Shown one piece after another: positions 8,236 through 62,197 of a DNA stretch of 64,000 bases. The stretch is from positions 1,364,001-1,428,000 of the forward strand of contig NZ_AP027043.1 of the NCBI RefSeq assembly GCF_027924665.1. Direction: 5' to 3'. The DNA comes from Flavobacterium sp. GSB-24. GTDB taxonomy: Bacteria > Bacteroidota > Bacteroidia > Flavobacteriales > Flavobacteriaceae. Below the pieces are notes generated by a model. That model saw only the letters and a list, made by a program, of their open reading frames with translations, searched no databases and was not told where the DNA came from. The stretch's first letter is position 1; each line of letters begins with the position of its first letter. The translations under genes were made by a program, and so were the position numbers.

Positions 8236-8400
8236 ACCGCAAAGAGCGCTAAGGTTTATCGCAAAGTTCGCTAAGATTTTTTTAAGTAAGAATTTATAAA
8301 AGTTCGCAAAGCTTCATTAATAGCTTTGCGGACTTTGTGTTTATAAACGTAACCTTAAAAAAAAGCTTTGCGCTCTTTGCGTTAAAAAAAACTGCAAAGA
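8236..8400. repeat. CGCAAAG-type intergenic palindrome
   Basis: The 405-bp gap 8228-8632 has no gene. Its first part carries ccgcaaagagcgctaagg, cgcaaagttcgctaag and gttcgcaaagcttc, then the complementary words gctttgcggactttg and ctttgcgctctttgcg, so the whole stretch can fold back on itself. A weak hairpin with a T run (8422-8452) and an AT-rich promoter-like region follow before the GT61-like gene. Confidence 0.7.
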
Positions 8401-23746: not shown

Positions 23747-23758
23747 TTTTTGTTGGTT

Positions 23759-23850
23759 GCACAAAGTTTCGCCAAGTTGCCACAGAGATTCACAAAGTTT
23801 TTATTTTCTCCATGTATCTTTGTGATTTCTTCGCGAATCTTTGTGAAATA
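23759..23850. repeat. Divergent-promoter region with TTCACAAAGTTT repeat words
   Basis: Words cacaaagtttcgcc and agattcacaaagttt pair with atctttgtgatttc and cgaatctttgtgaaat. The repeat fills the whole 120-bp gap between ruvC and the flippase-like gene, so their promoters must overlap it. Confidence 0.65.
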
Positions 23851-29017: not shown

Positions 29018-29134
29018 ACAATTGGCTTTTTTTCAGGCATTATTTCCCGCTTTCCGTTCCAATTTTTTATTTTTTAAAGAAAAAAATAAAAAGATTTCCA
29101 CTTCAATCGGGGCTAGATTTCAAACAATTGGCTT
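29018..29134. repeat. Palindromic element flanked by acaattggctt
   Basis: The 338-bp gap 28917-29254 has no gene. A segment with cccgctttccgttccaat and, ~55 nt later, the complementary-like atttccacttcaatcgggg is AT-rich in the middle and bounded by the 11-bp direct repeat acaattggctt at 29018-29028 and 29124-29134. The layout resembles a small inserted element with target-like direct repeats. A CACAAAG-type word repeat follows at 29156-29248. Confidence 0.5.
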
Positions 29135-60191: not shown

Positions 60192-60315
60192 AAAACTGCT
60201 TTGAGATCTTATTAGTAAATGAATGTTAAAAATATAGCTTTACGAATATAGAAGTTATTTTTTTATTCAGTCAATACTTTTTTAACAAAAACTGTTAATT
60301 TGTTGACTTATTGGA

Positions 60316-60546
60316 TTAACCGCAAAGTTTAGAAAGAAAAAACGCAAAGGTTCGCAAAGTTTTTTTGAATTGACTTCAGCTTTAGCTGGAGTTGCATAAA
60401 ATCAAGCGGAATGACTTTTTTTGAAACAAAAGAAAATTTGAAGAGGTTTTTAATCGCAAAGACTCAAAAAAAAATACAAAGGTTCGCAAAGTTTAATTTT
60501 AAAACTTTGCGAACCTTTGCGTAAATCTTAGCGCACTTTGCGGTAA
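60316..60546. repeat. CGCAAAGTTCGCAAAG intergenic palindrome
   Basis: The 456-bp gap 60192-60647 has no gene before the array. ccgcaaagtttagaaag, aacgcaaaggttcgcaaag and ttcgcaaagtttaat are followed by complementary aactttgcgaacctttgcg and cactttgcggt. A gctttagctgg fragment of the 2690/3788 hairpin family lies at 60381-60392. Confidence 0.75.
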
Positions 60547-60602
60547 AAAAAACAGAAAAGTATAGAAAAACAGAAAACCCGAATATTTCTATTCGGGTTT
60601 TG

Positions 60603-60645
60603 TGGTACCTCCAGTCCCGAGGCTTCGGGAGAACCAGGGACACAT
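60603..60645 (-). pseudogene. tRNA-Phe 3' fragment with hairpin in the T-loop, unit 1
   Basis: On the minus strand it reads ATGTGTCCCTGGTTC, then the hairpin TCCCGAAGCCTCGGGA, then CTGGAGGTACCA. Compared with the intact gene, GATCC of the T-loop region is replaced by the 16-nt hairpin. It lacks the acceptor 5' half, D arm and anticodon, so it cannot be a functional tRNA. Confidence 0.92.
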
Positions 60646-60647
60646 AT

Positions 60648-60932
60648 TTAGTTTCTTTTGGATAAAATATCTTTTAAAATTGACGGATCATTAATTATTT
60701 TATCATTAAAGGTTTTGCTTTTCATTCTTTTAATAAAGCGTTCCAAGTAAAGAGCTTCGTCTCTGTCATTACAATTAAAAGTCAAAACGATTTCCCAGTC
60801 ATTGGCAATCTTGGTAAAGGAATTTGAATAAGAGTGATTATTGTGTTTTATTACTCTTTCGTTTATGTTATTGGTTTCGCCGATGTAAAATTTTTGAGAT
60901 GATTTTGAATAGAGAATATAGAGATAATGCAT
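60648..60932 (-). CDS. GIY-YIG nuclease-like protein, unit 1
   Basis: A 94-residue single-domain GIY-YIG (UPF0213/YhbQ-like) protein. MHYLYILYSKSSQKFYIGET (1-20) contains the modified GIY strand (YLYIL) and the YIG (15-17). NNINERVIKHNNHSY has the conserved Arg26 and His30, and DEALYLERFIKRMK carries the catalytic-type Glu64. Such domains cleave DNA using one metal ion; small stand-alone members are poorly understood. The protein is identical to unit 2 and differs from units 3 and 4 by Asn55 to Thr. The stop codon is immediately followed by a tRNA-Phe fragment. Expression probably depends on upstream readthrough. Confidence 0.9.
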   Translation of the reverse strand: MHYLYILYSKSSQKFYIGETNNINERVIKHNNHSYSNSFTKIANDWEIVLTFNCNDRDEALYLERFIKRMKSKTFNDKIINDPSILKDILSKRN

Positions 60933-60983
60933 TTGAATGAGTATTAAAAAACAAAAAACCCGAATATTTCTATTCGGGTTTTG

Positions 60984-61026
60984 TGGTACCTCCAGTCCCG
61001 AGGCTTCGGGAGAACCAGGGACACAT
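60984..61026 (-). pseudogene. tRNA-Phe 3' fragment with hairpin in the T-loop, unit 2
   Basis: Same sequence as 60603-60645, directly behind the stop of the unit 2 gene. The acceptor 3' strand AGGTACC is intact and 5 nt from the following hairpin, as in the real tRNA gene. Confidence 0.92.
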
Positions 61027-61028
61027 AT

Positions 61029-61313
61029 TTAGTTTCTTTTGGATAAAATATCTTTTAAAATTGACGGATCATTAATTATTTTATCATTAAAGGTTTTGCT
61101 TTTCATTCTTTTAATAAAGCGTTCCAAGTAAAGAGCTTCGTCTCTGTCATTACAATTAAAAGTCAAAACGATTTCCCAGTCATTGGCAATCTTGGTAAAG
61201 GAATTTGAATAAGAGTGATTATTGTGTTTTATTACTCTTTCGTTTATGTTATTGGTTTCGCCGATGTAAAATTTTTGAGATGATTTTGAATAGAGAATAT
61301 AGAGATAATGCAT
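61029..61313 (-). CDS. GIY-YIG nuclease-like protein, unit 2
   Basis: A 94-residue protein, identical in sequence to unit 1: YIG at residues 15-17, Arg26, His30 and Glu64 are all intact, so there is no sign of decay. The coding DNA and the leader between hairpin and ATG also match unit 1, pointing to recent duplication or gene conversion. The ATG lies about 26 nt after the hairpin cccgaata/tattcggg (60959-60978 belongs to the next unit downstream; its own upstream hairpin is at 61340-61359). It is flanked on both sides by tRNA-Phe fragments. Confidence 0.9.
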   Translation of the reverse strand: MHYLYILYSKSSQKFYIGETNNINERVIKHNNHSYSNSFTKIANDWEIVLTFNCNDRDEALYLERFIKRMKSKTFNDKIINDPSILKDILSKRN

Positions 61314-61364
61314 TTGAATGAGTATTAAAAAACAAAAAACCCGAATATTTCTATTCGGGTTTTG

Positions 61365-61407
61365 TGGTACCTCCAGTCCCGAGGCTTCGGGAGAACCAGG
61401 GACACAT
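61365..61407 (-). pseudogene. tRNA-Phe 3' fragment with hairpin in the T-loop, unit 3
   Basis: Identical to the fragments of units 1 and 2, with the perfect UCCCGA/UCGGGA stem. It starts three bases after the stop of the unit 3 gene. Confidence 0.92.
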
Positions 61408-61409
61408 AT

Positions 61410-61694
61410 TTAGTTTCTTTTGGATAAAATATCTTTTAAAATTGACGGATCATTAATTATTTTATCATTAAAGGTTTTGCTTTTCATTCTTTTAATAAAG
61501 CGTTCCAAGTAAAGAGCTTCGTCTCTGTCAGTACAATTAAAAGTTAAAACGATTTCCCAGTCATTGGCAATCTTGGTAAAGGAATTTGAATAAGAGTGAT
61601 TATTGTGTTTTATTACTCTTTCGTTTATGTTATTGGTTTCGCCGATGTAAAATTTTTGAGATGATTTTGAATAGAGAATATAGAGATAATGCAT
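61410..61694 (-). CDS. GIY-YIG nuclease-like protein, unit 3
   Basis: A 94-residue GIY-YIG protein with Thr55 in place of Asn and two silent-type base changes near it, shared with unit 4. One T is missing just before the ATG (gcattgaatg on the plus strand versus gcatttgaatg), which opens an upstream in-frame extension (MLFNTHS) to 61715. I keep the ATG at 61694, which is common to all units. Catalytic-type residues are intact. Confidence 0.9.
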   Translation of the reverse strand: MHYLYILYSKSSQKFYIGETNNINERVIKHNNHSYSNSFTKIANDWEIVLTFNCTDRDEALYLERFIKRMKSKTFNDKIINDPSILKDILSKRN

Positions 61695-61744
61695 TGAATG
61701 AGTATTAAAAAGCAAAAAACCCGAATATTTCTATTCGGGTTTTG

Positions 61745-61787
61745 TGGTACCTCCAGTCCCGAGGCTTTGGGAGAACCAGGGACACAT
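61745..61787 (-). pseudogene. tRNA-Phe 3' fragment with hairpin in the T-loop, unit 4 variant
   Basis: As the other fragments, but the hairpin reads cccgaggctttggg on the plus strand instead of cccgaggcttcggg, weakening one pair. This single change distinguishes the oldest-looking junction or a later mutation. Confidence 0.9.
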
Positions 61788-61789
61788 AT

Positions 61790-62074
61790 TTAGTTTCTTT
61801 TGGATAAAATATCTTTTAAAATTGACGGATCATTAATTATTTTATCATTAAAGGTTTTGCTTTTCATTCTTTTAATAAAGCGTTCCAAGTAAAGAGCTTC
61901 GTCTCTGTCAGTACAATTAAAAGTTAAAACGATTTCCCAGTCATTGGCAATCTTGGTAAAGGAATTTGAATAAGAGTGATTATTGTGTTTTATTACTCTT
62001 TCGTTTATGTTATTGGTTTCGCCGATGTAAAATTTTTGAGATGATTTTGAATAGAGAATATAGAGATAATGCAT
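61790..62074 (-). CDS. GIY-YIG nuclease-like protein, unit 4 (next to tRNA-Phe)
   Basis: A 94-residue protein, identical to unit 3. It is the first gene after the intact tRNA-Phe: tRNA end at 62125, hairpin 62119-62100, ATG at 62074. Only about 25 nt, mostly the T run, lie between hairpin and start codon, so no separate promoter fits there. The likely source of transcript is readthrough of the tRNA terminator, or a promoter inside the tRNA. YIG, Arg26, His30 and Glu64 are present. Confidence 0.9.
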   Translation of the reverse strand: MHYLYILYSKSSQKFYIGETNNINERVIKHNNHSYSNSFTKIANDWEIVLTFNCTDRDEALYLERFIKRMKSKTFNDKIINDPSILKDILSKRN

Positions 62075-62099
62075 TGAATGAGTATTAAAAAGCAAAAAA

Positions 62100-62119
62100 C
62101 CCGAATATTTCTATTCGGG
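62100..62119 (-). terminator. tRNA-Phe terminator hairpin (first of five copies)
   Basis: CCCGAATA-GAAA-TATTCGGG on the minus strand is followed by a U-rich run. It begins five bases after the tRNA 3' end. The same hairpin follows every tRNA fragment at 60578, 60959, 61340 and 61720. Confidence 0.85.
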
Positions 62120-62124
62120 TTTTG

Positions 62125-62197
62125 TGGTACCTCCAGGGATCGAACCAGGGACACATGGATTTTCAGTCCATTGCTCTACCATCTGAGCTAAGGTACC
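62125..62197 (-). tRNA. tRNA-Phe (anticodon GAA)
   Basis: On the minus strand the 73-nt gene begins GGTACCTTAGCTCAGATGG. Acceptor GGTACCT pairs with AGGTACC, discriminator A. The anticodon arm ATGGA-CTGAAAA-TCCAT gives GAA. The T arm is CCTGG-TTCGATC-CCTGG, with an apparent U51-U63 mismatch in its stem. CCA is not encoded. It is the head of the GIY-YIG array. Confidence 0.95.

Follow-up and report, generated by a model that had tools for sequence, protein, structure and literature searches.

The stretch examined here, called the window, is 64,000 nucleotides of the Flavobacterium sp. GSB-24 chromosome (contig NZ_AP027043.1, positions 1,364,001 to 1,428,000). It carries a tandem array of four genes for a small GIY-YIG nuclease next to an intact tRNA-Phe gene. 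The array is one case of a phylum-wide layout, in which an intact tRNA gene is followed by a spacer, a nuclease open reading frame (ORF), and a partial copy of the same tRNA, or in which the mirror image of this order is found. We see about an even chance that the four genes represent a tandemly clustered selfish nuclease element, free-standing, homing-like, and tied to tRNA genes, a reading drawn from sequence comparison.

Tandem Repeats Finder reports the repeat at 60559-62136 of the window, with a period of 381, 4.1 copies, 99% matches, and a score of 3072. The four ORFs lie on the minus strand, comprise 94 codons each, and have start codons spaced by 380, 381, and 381 bp. ORFs 1 and 2 are identical in sequence, as are ORFs 3 and 4, and the two pairs differ by 2 nt and one residue. 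The two of the four ORFs that were scanned match the Pfam GIY-YIG model (1.7e-13 and 1.3e-13). ARAGORN places an intact tRNA-Phe(gaa) directly upstream of ORF 1 in the direction of transcription. The ORF calls and the repeat period bear out two claims of a first-pass annotation made from the sequence alone, namely that four 94-residue GIY-YIG genes stand in tandem and that the array reaches up to an intact tRNA-Phe.

Read along the minus strand, the intact tRNA-Phe is followed by a terminator-like hairpin and then by four repeats of ORF, partial tRNA-Phe, and hairpin (Table 1). Each unit ends with the 3' part of tRNA-Phe, the hairpin CCCGAATAGAAATATTCGGG, and a T-run. The partial tRNA spans the region from the variable loop to the 3' end rather than a plain 3' end, and the 16-nt palindrome TCCCGAAGCCTCGGGA, with one mismatch in the tRNA-proximal unit, stands in place of its T-loop. 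The first-pass annotation had recognized the tRNA-Phe 3' fragment and the terminator hairpin in each unit, both of which are present, and had overlooked the replacement of the T-loop.

Four of the five flanking ORFs tested have a Pfam match (type III pantothenate kinase, MFS transporter, DUF6814, and alpha-amylase). None of these five, to which the scan was confined, is an integrase or a transposase, as had been claimed. An assembly artefact is unlikely, given that the genome is assembled in 2 contigs with 100% completeness and that other genomes contain similar arrays.

Table 1 Features of the array at tRNA-Phe (positions in the window).
Feature	Position	Strand	Basis
Intact tRNA-Phe(gaa)	62124..62197	-	ARAGORN; Rfam tRNA, 66.6 bits
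Terminator-like hairpin and T-run behind intact tRNA, part of direct repeat	62100..62119	-	Sequence, fold; hairpin with T-run at same place in empty relatives (by eye)
GIY-YIG ORF 1, 94 residues, tRNA-proximal	61790..62074	-	ORF, Pfam/sequence comparison
Pseudo-tRNA-Phe 3' part 1 (variable loop to 3' end)	61744..61787	-	T-loop palindrome 61757-61772, one pair broken
Terminator-like hairpin copy, unit 1	61720..61739	-	Sequence
GIY-YIG ORF 2, 94 residues	61410..61694	-	ORF, sequence comparison
Pseudo-tRNA-Phe 3' part 2	61364..61407	-	Palindrome 61377-61392
Terminator-like hairpin copy, unit 2	61340..61359	-	Sequence
GIY-YIG ORF 3, 94 residues	61029..61313	-	ORF, sequence comparison
Pseudo-tRNA-Phe 3' part 3	60983..61026	-	Palindrome 60996-61011
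Terminator-like hairpin copy, unit 3	60959..60978	-	Sequence
GIY-YIG ORF 4, 94 residues, tRNA-distal	60648..60932	-	ORF, Pfam/sequence comparison
Pseudo-tRNA-Phe 3' part 4	60602..60645	-	Palindrome 60615-60630
Last terminator-like hairpin copy	60578..60597	-	Sequence; beyond it, like relatives' empty site (by eye)

A GIY-YIG subfamily linked to tRNA genes

A search with the window protein, made before any tRNA link was known, gives matches in 34 of 60 genomes, its own genome counted. ARAGORN finds a same-strand tRNA directly upstream of the ORF at 21 of the 29 best loci fetched from relatives (Phe, Asn, Ala, Val, Pro, His, or Met). In a first, uncontrolled look at 23 tRNA-linked loci, the window's included, 21 have a second occurrence of 12 nt or more from the same tRNA or its flank behind the nuclease gene. 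A profile of the 23 tRNA-linked proteins (A1) was used to find further loci. We analysed 118 clusters, taken from 30 loci of the A1 search and 60 hand-picked stretches at the top of its list with overlaps removed; the 111 clusters with at least 85 bits to A1 form the main set. These clusters are drawn from the strongest matches and some share a genome, so that they are not independent.

An intact tRNA lies in range in 100 of the 111 clusters. In 91 of these a partial copy across the ORF is significant, that is, it beats 200 shuffles and every other isotype in a pool free of the pseudo-tRNAs that ARAGORN called selenocysteine, Stop, or Lys; one of the 91 pairs its partial copy with a 5'-side tRNA-Val. 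In the other nine the copy falls below this bar. The 'Lys' calls at two loci (L039 and L044) are hairpin-bearing pseudo-tRNA-Val. Inspection by eye of the 11 clusters that have no intact tRNA in range finds tRNA pieces adjoining the ORF in seven (L025, L031, L050, L069, L071, L073, and L127, of which some lie at contig ends). The clusters L064 and L082 enclose an intact tRNA, the stretch of L084 is truncated within a tRNA, and L070 shows nothing. The orientation is fixed: 132 ARAGORN calls within 400 bp of an ORF, some of them pseudo-tRNAs, are on the same strand and none is on the opposite strand.

The layout has two forms. The 3' form opens with the intact tRNA, which in most cases lies 34-68 bp from the ORF, and has a copy of its 3' part beyond the ORF. 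The 5' form, observed for Pro(ggg), Pro(tgg), and Asn(gtt), opens with a copy of the 5' part, and the intact tRNA stands behind the ORF. The 111 labels comprise 81 of the 3' form (one with unknown tRNA), 29 of the 5' form, and one with none. The first-pass description of a unit built on the tRNA 3' end therefore applies to the window locus and is not general, given the mirror form. At least two good ORFs are present in 38 of the 111 clusters, mostly 300-400 bp apart, decayed nuclease copies with stops occur, and the tRNA sites belong to about a dozen amino-acid types. Seven 5'-form elements at tRNA-Pro(tgg) are located behind tRNA-Ser(gct), in a neighbourhood common to several genomes (L059, L066, L068, L076, L104, L106, and L109).

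The same layout extends beyond the family. Among 28 loci inspected from a search of the phylum, 24 have a same-strand tRNA and none has one on the opposite strand, with Asp, Thr, Lys, and Pro(cgg) as additional types, and most have, by eye, a partial copy of this kind. Such proteins are encoded in 138 of 395 genomes of the family (A1) and in 105 of 296 genomes of a phylum sample (A2, a 50-protein profile) at E <= 1e-20, counted by protein match alone. This cut-off is intended to exclude another small GIY-YIG subfamily, whose observed members score 51-65 bits. Looser counts (316 of 395 and 168 of 296) were dropped, as they let in the other subfamily.

A1 was built from tRNA-linked loci, so the later searches favour such loci, and the general Pfam GIY-YIG model serves as the control. 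It yields 30 loci from 40 genomes of the family. Four have at least 85 bits to A2, and three of these four are next to a tRNA. Among the 26 loci outside the subfamily, a tRNA lies within 400 bp in one and at 481 bp in one more. Likewise, the six weak clusters L006 and L034-L038 have no tRNA. The tRNA link is thus a property of this subfamily and not of GIY-YIG genes generally. The first-pass annotation had left it to other genomes whether the family goes with tRNA genes; there the same-strand link is strong, both in the family and in the wider phylum. GIY-YIG genes outside the subfamily are partly flanked by inverted repeats resembling repetitive extragenic palindromic (REP) sequences, for example TCATTGCGAGGCACGAAGCAATCT (L034-L038, L260, L265, and L279), seen in part by eye and, in three of the 30 control loci, as exact inverted matches of 14-16 nt.

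Each nuclease lineage is tied to a particular tRNA, in line with the fixed site expected of a homing endonuclease. On a tree of the 111 proteins, labels of isotype and side require 17 changes, compared with a mean of 77.3 for shuffled labels, and none of 200 shuffles is as low. The tree has few columns and most of its forks are weak, and 14 labels were set by hand (nine unlabelled rows from the adjoining tRNA or piece, three mispicked tRNAs, and two entered as 'unknown' and 'none'). A second set of 52 loci from named genomes, overlapping the first at least at L208, L216, and L233, has a tRNA within 100 bp upstream in 40. At 51% identity or more (n = 34), 28 loci have an adjoining tRNA, and all 28 are tRNA-Phe. 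The 18 more distant loci include 12 with a tRNA, namely Leu (5), Asp (3), and Val, Asn, Arg, and Ala (1 each). Forecasts of the tRNA type from the protein are fitted by the fragments at L030 and L069 (Pro) and at L025 (Val). The forecast of tRNA-Pro for L031 looks wrong, the fragment by eye not being tRNA-Pro.

The tRNA-linked nucleases have about 80-95 residues, and the unit of about 380 bp encodes nothing else. Residues Y5, I6, S9, Y16, G18, R26, and E64 are invariant in A1, and S9, Y16, G18, R26, H30, W46, E64, and K68 are invariant in A2. We take Y16, R26, and E64 to be the catalytic Tyr, Arg, and Glu of the GIY-YIG fold. The structure model of the window protein has a predicted local distance difference test (pLDDT) score of 94.2, and its Foldseek neighbours are UPF0213 (1zg2), Slx1, and the catalytic domain of I-TevI, with modest E-values of 1.6e-3 and above. 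A profile search of the PDB returns 1zg2 (3.8e-12) and Slx1 (1.8e-5). The UPF0213 structures 1zg2 and 1ywl are the closest solved ones by sequence, and 1zg2 also by fold.

Hairpins in the partial tRNA copies

The palindrome in the T-loop of the window's partial copies has counterparts in other loci. A GC-rich hairpin with a stem of at least 6 is present in 69 of 109 pseudo-side 70-nt regions, a count that may include terminator hairpins. Shuffled regions have one in 32 of 2180 cases and control windows of the same loci in 16 of 2913; 40 of the 109 regions have no qualifying hairpin. The motif [TC]CCCG..CGGG[AG] occurs in 50 of the 109 regions and in 3 of the 2913 control windows. The replaced part differs between lineages: by eye, it is the anticodon arm in most Val, Arg, Ala, and Pro copies and the D-loop in 5'-form Asn copies.

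The Phe lineage has exactly 16 nt in place of the T-loop, and the 38 loci matching the search pattern contain 21 distinct sequences. Among these, pair 1 is T-A in 11 and C-G in 10, pair 2 is C-G in 18 and T-A in 3, and neither is ever mixed; pair 5 is broken in two of the 21. The hairpins covary between species, with 13 double-changed cells and a covariation score of 0.260, compared with 0.131, each reached in 0 of 500 shuffles. The same holds for the count of paired cells, and sliding the partners abolishes the signal. Because G-T intermediates are absent, the pattern suggests selection or copying at the level of DNA.

Related palindromes are dispersed in the window's genome. TCCCGAN(2-6)TCGGGA stands at 603-618 of the window and occurs at 79 places in the genome, and the reversed pattern at none. 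Most of those among 15 loci inspected stand in other contexts, some of them terminator-like. Some sit in the middle of another repeat, GTCATTTC..GAAATC (L163 and L167). The same genome has three full-length pseudo-tRNA-Ala copies in tandem, about 85 bp apart and with no ORF of their own, before an intact tRNA-Ala and then another GIY-YIG ORF (contig 1, about 586205-586533; L005, 1107-1435). In these copies the anticodon arm is replaced by TCCCGATGAAAATCGGGA, a 7-bp hairpin with a GAAA loop, and they may be expressed as anticodon-less tRNA-like RNAs.

These observations bear on a reading that we think rather unlikely, namely a structure-directed mobile element resembling REP sequences and their associated tyrosine transposases (RAYTs), in which the nuclease would recognize hairpin or cloverleaf DNA, the hairpin-substituted tRNA parts would be its ends, and ORF-less copies would be moved in trans. 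The hairpin pairing kept while the sequence drifts with no G-T intermediates, the dispersal of palindromes of the same family and not of the reversed pattern, the ORF-less pseudo-tRNA-Ala copies, and the presence of the branched-DNA nuclease Slx1 among both sequence and fold neighbours are all in its favour. However, the HUH transposase of RAYTs has no relation to the GIY-YIG nuclease, most of the inspected dispersed palindromes stand in other contexts, and more than a third of the pseudo-side regions have no qualifying hairpin.

Two further observations concern other repeats and RNAs of the window. Palindromic ACCGCAAAG...CTTTGCGAACCTTTGCG repeats lie at 60300-60550, by the far end of the array, and akin repeats are found near 8238, at 23756-23846, and at several empty tRNA-Phe sites. 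A Flavo-1 RNA (RF01705, 81.7 bits) is located at 29039-29118.

Empty sites, descent, and a proposed mechanism

The gene coaX is present in 61 of 61 genomes of the genus, and all 30 loci fetched have a tRNA-Phe beside it. The nuclease is absent from 27 of the 30. The three occupied loci, including the window's, have 4, 1, and 2 copies, the window's own locus in this comparison ending after the fourth copy begins. Alleles that lack the element thus exist, as expected of a free-standing homing endonuclease, and the empty sites mostly have the same kind of terminator hairpin. At the occupied sites, the ORF is, by eye, flanked on either side by the tRNA end, the hairpin, and the spacer, each in the version of the host itself. 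When the two spacers are compared in 41 3'-form loci, their identity is mostly 75-95% and drops near the start codon to the level that gapped alignment gives for unlike sequences (about 0.6-0.7). The flanking repeats have the appearance of a duplication, either of a long target or of local origin. From their presence we infer that recombination between the repeats permits an exact return to the empty site.

The nuclease ORFs are under purifying selection: the ratio of nonsynonymous to synonymous substitution rates (dN/dS) is 0.04-0.20 among nine Phe-type ORFs (30 of 36 pairs computable, dS often saturated). In all of 15 loci chosen from the named set, the element occupies the same coaX-linked tRNA-Phe. 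The persistence of these Flavobacterium loci at one site with a dN/dS of about 0.1, together with the fixed orientation and the narrow tRNA gap in most 3'-form cases, is what one would expect if the nuclease, transcribed behind the tRNA, served the cell in tRNA-gene maintenance, stress, or defence and the pseudo-tRNA were a regulatory or processing structure of its mRNA. The patchy distribution in the genus, the stop-bearing decayed copies, and the range of tRNA types used as sites argue against such a domesticated host function, which we hold to be distinctly unlikely.

A small nuclease gene could also have come to lie behind a tRNA by chance and been duplicated with the tRNA end by slippage or unequal crossing over, the nuclease being inert on the site. 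The direct repeats are enough for array growth and match the host's tRNA and terminator, the units in the window are nearly identical, and the tests for lateral transfer described below gave no positive result, in agreement with this account. It leaves unexplained the isotype-tied lineages, the 5' mirror form, and the covarying hairpin, and GIY-YIG genes outside the subfamily are rarely linked to a tRNA; passive duplication thus seems quite improbable.

The homing-like selfish element named at the outset would work as follows. The GIY-YIG protein would cut the gene of its own tRNA, in the Phe lineage within the T-loop, where the hairpin stands in the partial copy. The break would be repaired by copying the element in, through homing or through insertion that duplicates a long stretch of the target. 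An intact tRNA gene would be left because the cell needs it, and the hairpin-substituted partial copy would be a dead, uncuttable target. Thereafter the direct repeats would recombine, perhaps stimulated by renewed cutting, and so add units or remove the element cleanly. For lineages that do not fit the T-loop, the cut would have to fall at another place, and the arm substituted by the hairpin is the presumed one. We infer the cleavage, the insertion route, and the role of the nuclease in array growth from the arrangement of these sequences. The best external pointer to such a mechanism is the phage homing endonuclease SegB, which cuts in tRNA genes and for which the motif RAWTSGAAC is given (PMC13096335). 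In our own comparison its complement, GTTCSAWTY, fits the tRNA T-loop. Relaxed at one position, the motif is present in 13 of 13 intact tRNA-Phe and in 0 of 12 partial tRNA-Phe copies.

Several results weigh against the homing-like element. The by-eye match of the direct repeats to the host's own tRNA and terminator is fitted better by local duplication than by import, and unequal crossing over alone can explain the arrays, because direct repeats are enough to add or remove units. Recent lateral transfer between Flavobacterium species was looked for by dS and by approximately unbiased (AU) tests and was not found: the median dS of the nuclease is 1.35 compared with 0.80 for coaX (100 pairs), that is, not lower, and in five AU tests on the nuclease data the groupings suggested by coaX are not rejected (p 0.10-0.44). 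Neither the dS comparison nor the AU tests support transfer or reject it, and at the tRNA-Phe site an old presence with losses appears to fit at least as well as transfer. A collection of 50,697 phage records contains no match to the nuclease, a plasmid search returns one weak match, and PHROGs and PADLOC give weak matches or none. Two of the five covariation measures of the Phe hairpins are ordinary (double-changed pairs, 128 of 500 shuffles; further pair types, 500 of 500). The intact tRNA-Phe next to the element retains the presumed site. The T-loop motif is retained in the partial copies of 14 of 18 Val, 5 of 5 Pro(tgg), 5 of 8 Arg, and 2 of 3 Ala, and it is found in 0 of 13 intact tRNA-Asn; because most partial copies of the other lineages keep the motif and tRNA-Asn lacks it, a T-loop cut cannot, on these sequences, be the general rule. 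The self-amplifying element adding itself at the tRNA 3' end, which the first-pass annotation had offered, is not borne out, since direct repeats suffice and the tests for lateral movement at tRNA-Phe gave no positive result.

A broader proposal, which we put forward tentatively and regard as possible rather than probable, is that Bacteroidota have distinct minimal mobile elements on tRNA genes, in which a bare GIY-YIG domain would read the folded (hairpin or cloverleaf) tRNA gene. The ends would be tRNA-derived, the covarying hairpin would mark the cleaved arm, and two mirror forms, tandem arrays, and ORF-less pseudo-tRNA arrays would occur. If the protein does cut tRNA genes, it would offer a minimal system for the persistence of selfish DNA at an essential gene and a model for the evolution of target choice in a bare GIY-YIG domain and for the growth and shrinkage of arrays. 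The hairpin-substituted partial tRNAs would predict the cut position of each lineage.

Relation to known systems

tRNA genes are common docking sites for mobile DNA, usually by way of integrases. Integrative elements and prophages at tRNA 3' ends have the tRNA 3' part on both sides of the insert and need an integrase. In the window, no integrase is found among the five flanking ORFs tested and the unit has only about 380 bp. Escherichia coli tyrT has tandem repeats with a piece of the tRNA-Tyr 3' end behind the tRNA gene, an arrangement like the one described here, and we know of no nuclease gene in those repeats. REP/RAYT (TnpA_REP) systems combine short dispersed palindromes with an HUH transposase gene and are not tied to tRNA genes. 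The window element resembles them in that palindromes are linked with the gene of a DNA-cutting enzyme. It differs in that its protein is a GIY-YIG nuclease and there is no HUH (Y1) transposase; its palindromes lie beside the ORF and at the 79 dispersed places, the link of the latter to the element being putative. Its closest solved relatives, UPF0213, also differ in setting: the other small GIY-YIG genes of these genomes, presumed to be of the UPF0213 kind, are rarely near a tRNA.

In the literature searched, in which few subscription journals are covered, we found no description of a tRNA-nested nuclease layout, in agreement with the first-pass annotation, whose author was aware of no described system arranged like this. 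The accessible text of a survey of the GIY-YIG superfamily has few mentions of tRNA and none on such a layout (PMC1564403). From these comparisons, the array looks like an undescribed kind of selfish element living on tRNA genes.

The nearest likeness is to SegB, with which the window element shares a GIY-YIG nuclease adjoining tRNA genes, together with the GIY-YIG fold and presumed catalytic Tyr, Arg, and Glu of a free-standing homing endonuclease. SegB is a free-standing GIY-YIG homing endonuclease of T-even phages that lies beside tRNA genes and drives tandem amplification of a tRNA-containing segment (PMC13096335, PMC2988022), and its homologs show no preference for particular isotypes (PMC13096335). 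SegB is phage-borne, whereas the window-type elements are chromosomal, encode 80-95 residues, and form isotype-tied lineages. They also have hairpin-substituted partial tRNAs, and tRNA-derived ends are not mentioned for SegB in the accessible parts of these sources. The layout is real and widespread and is undescribed in the literature searched, and in its working it would come closest to the SegB-like homing endonucleases.

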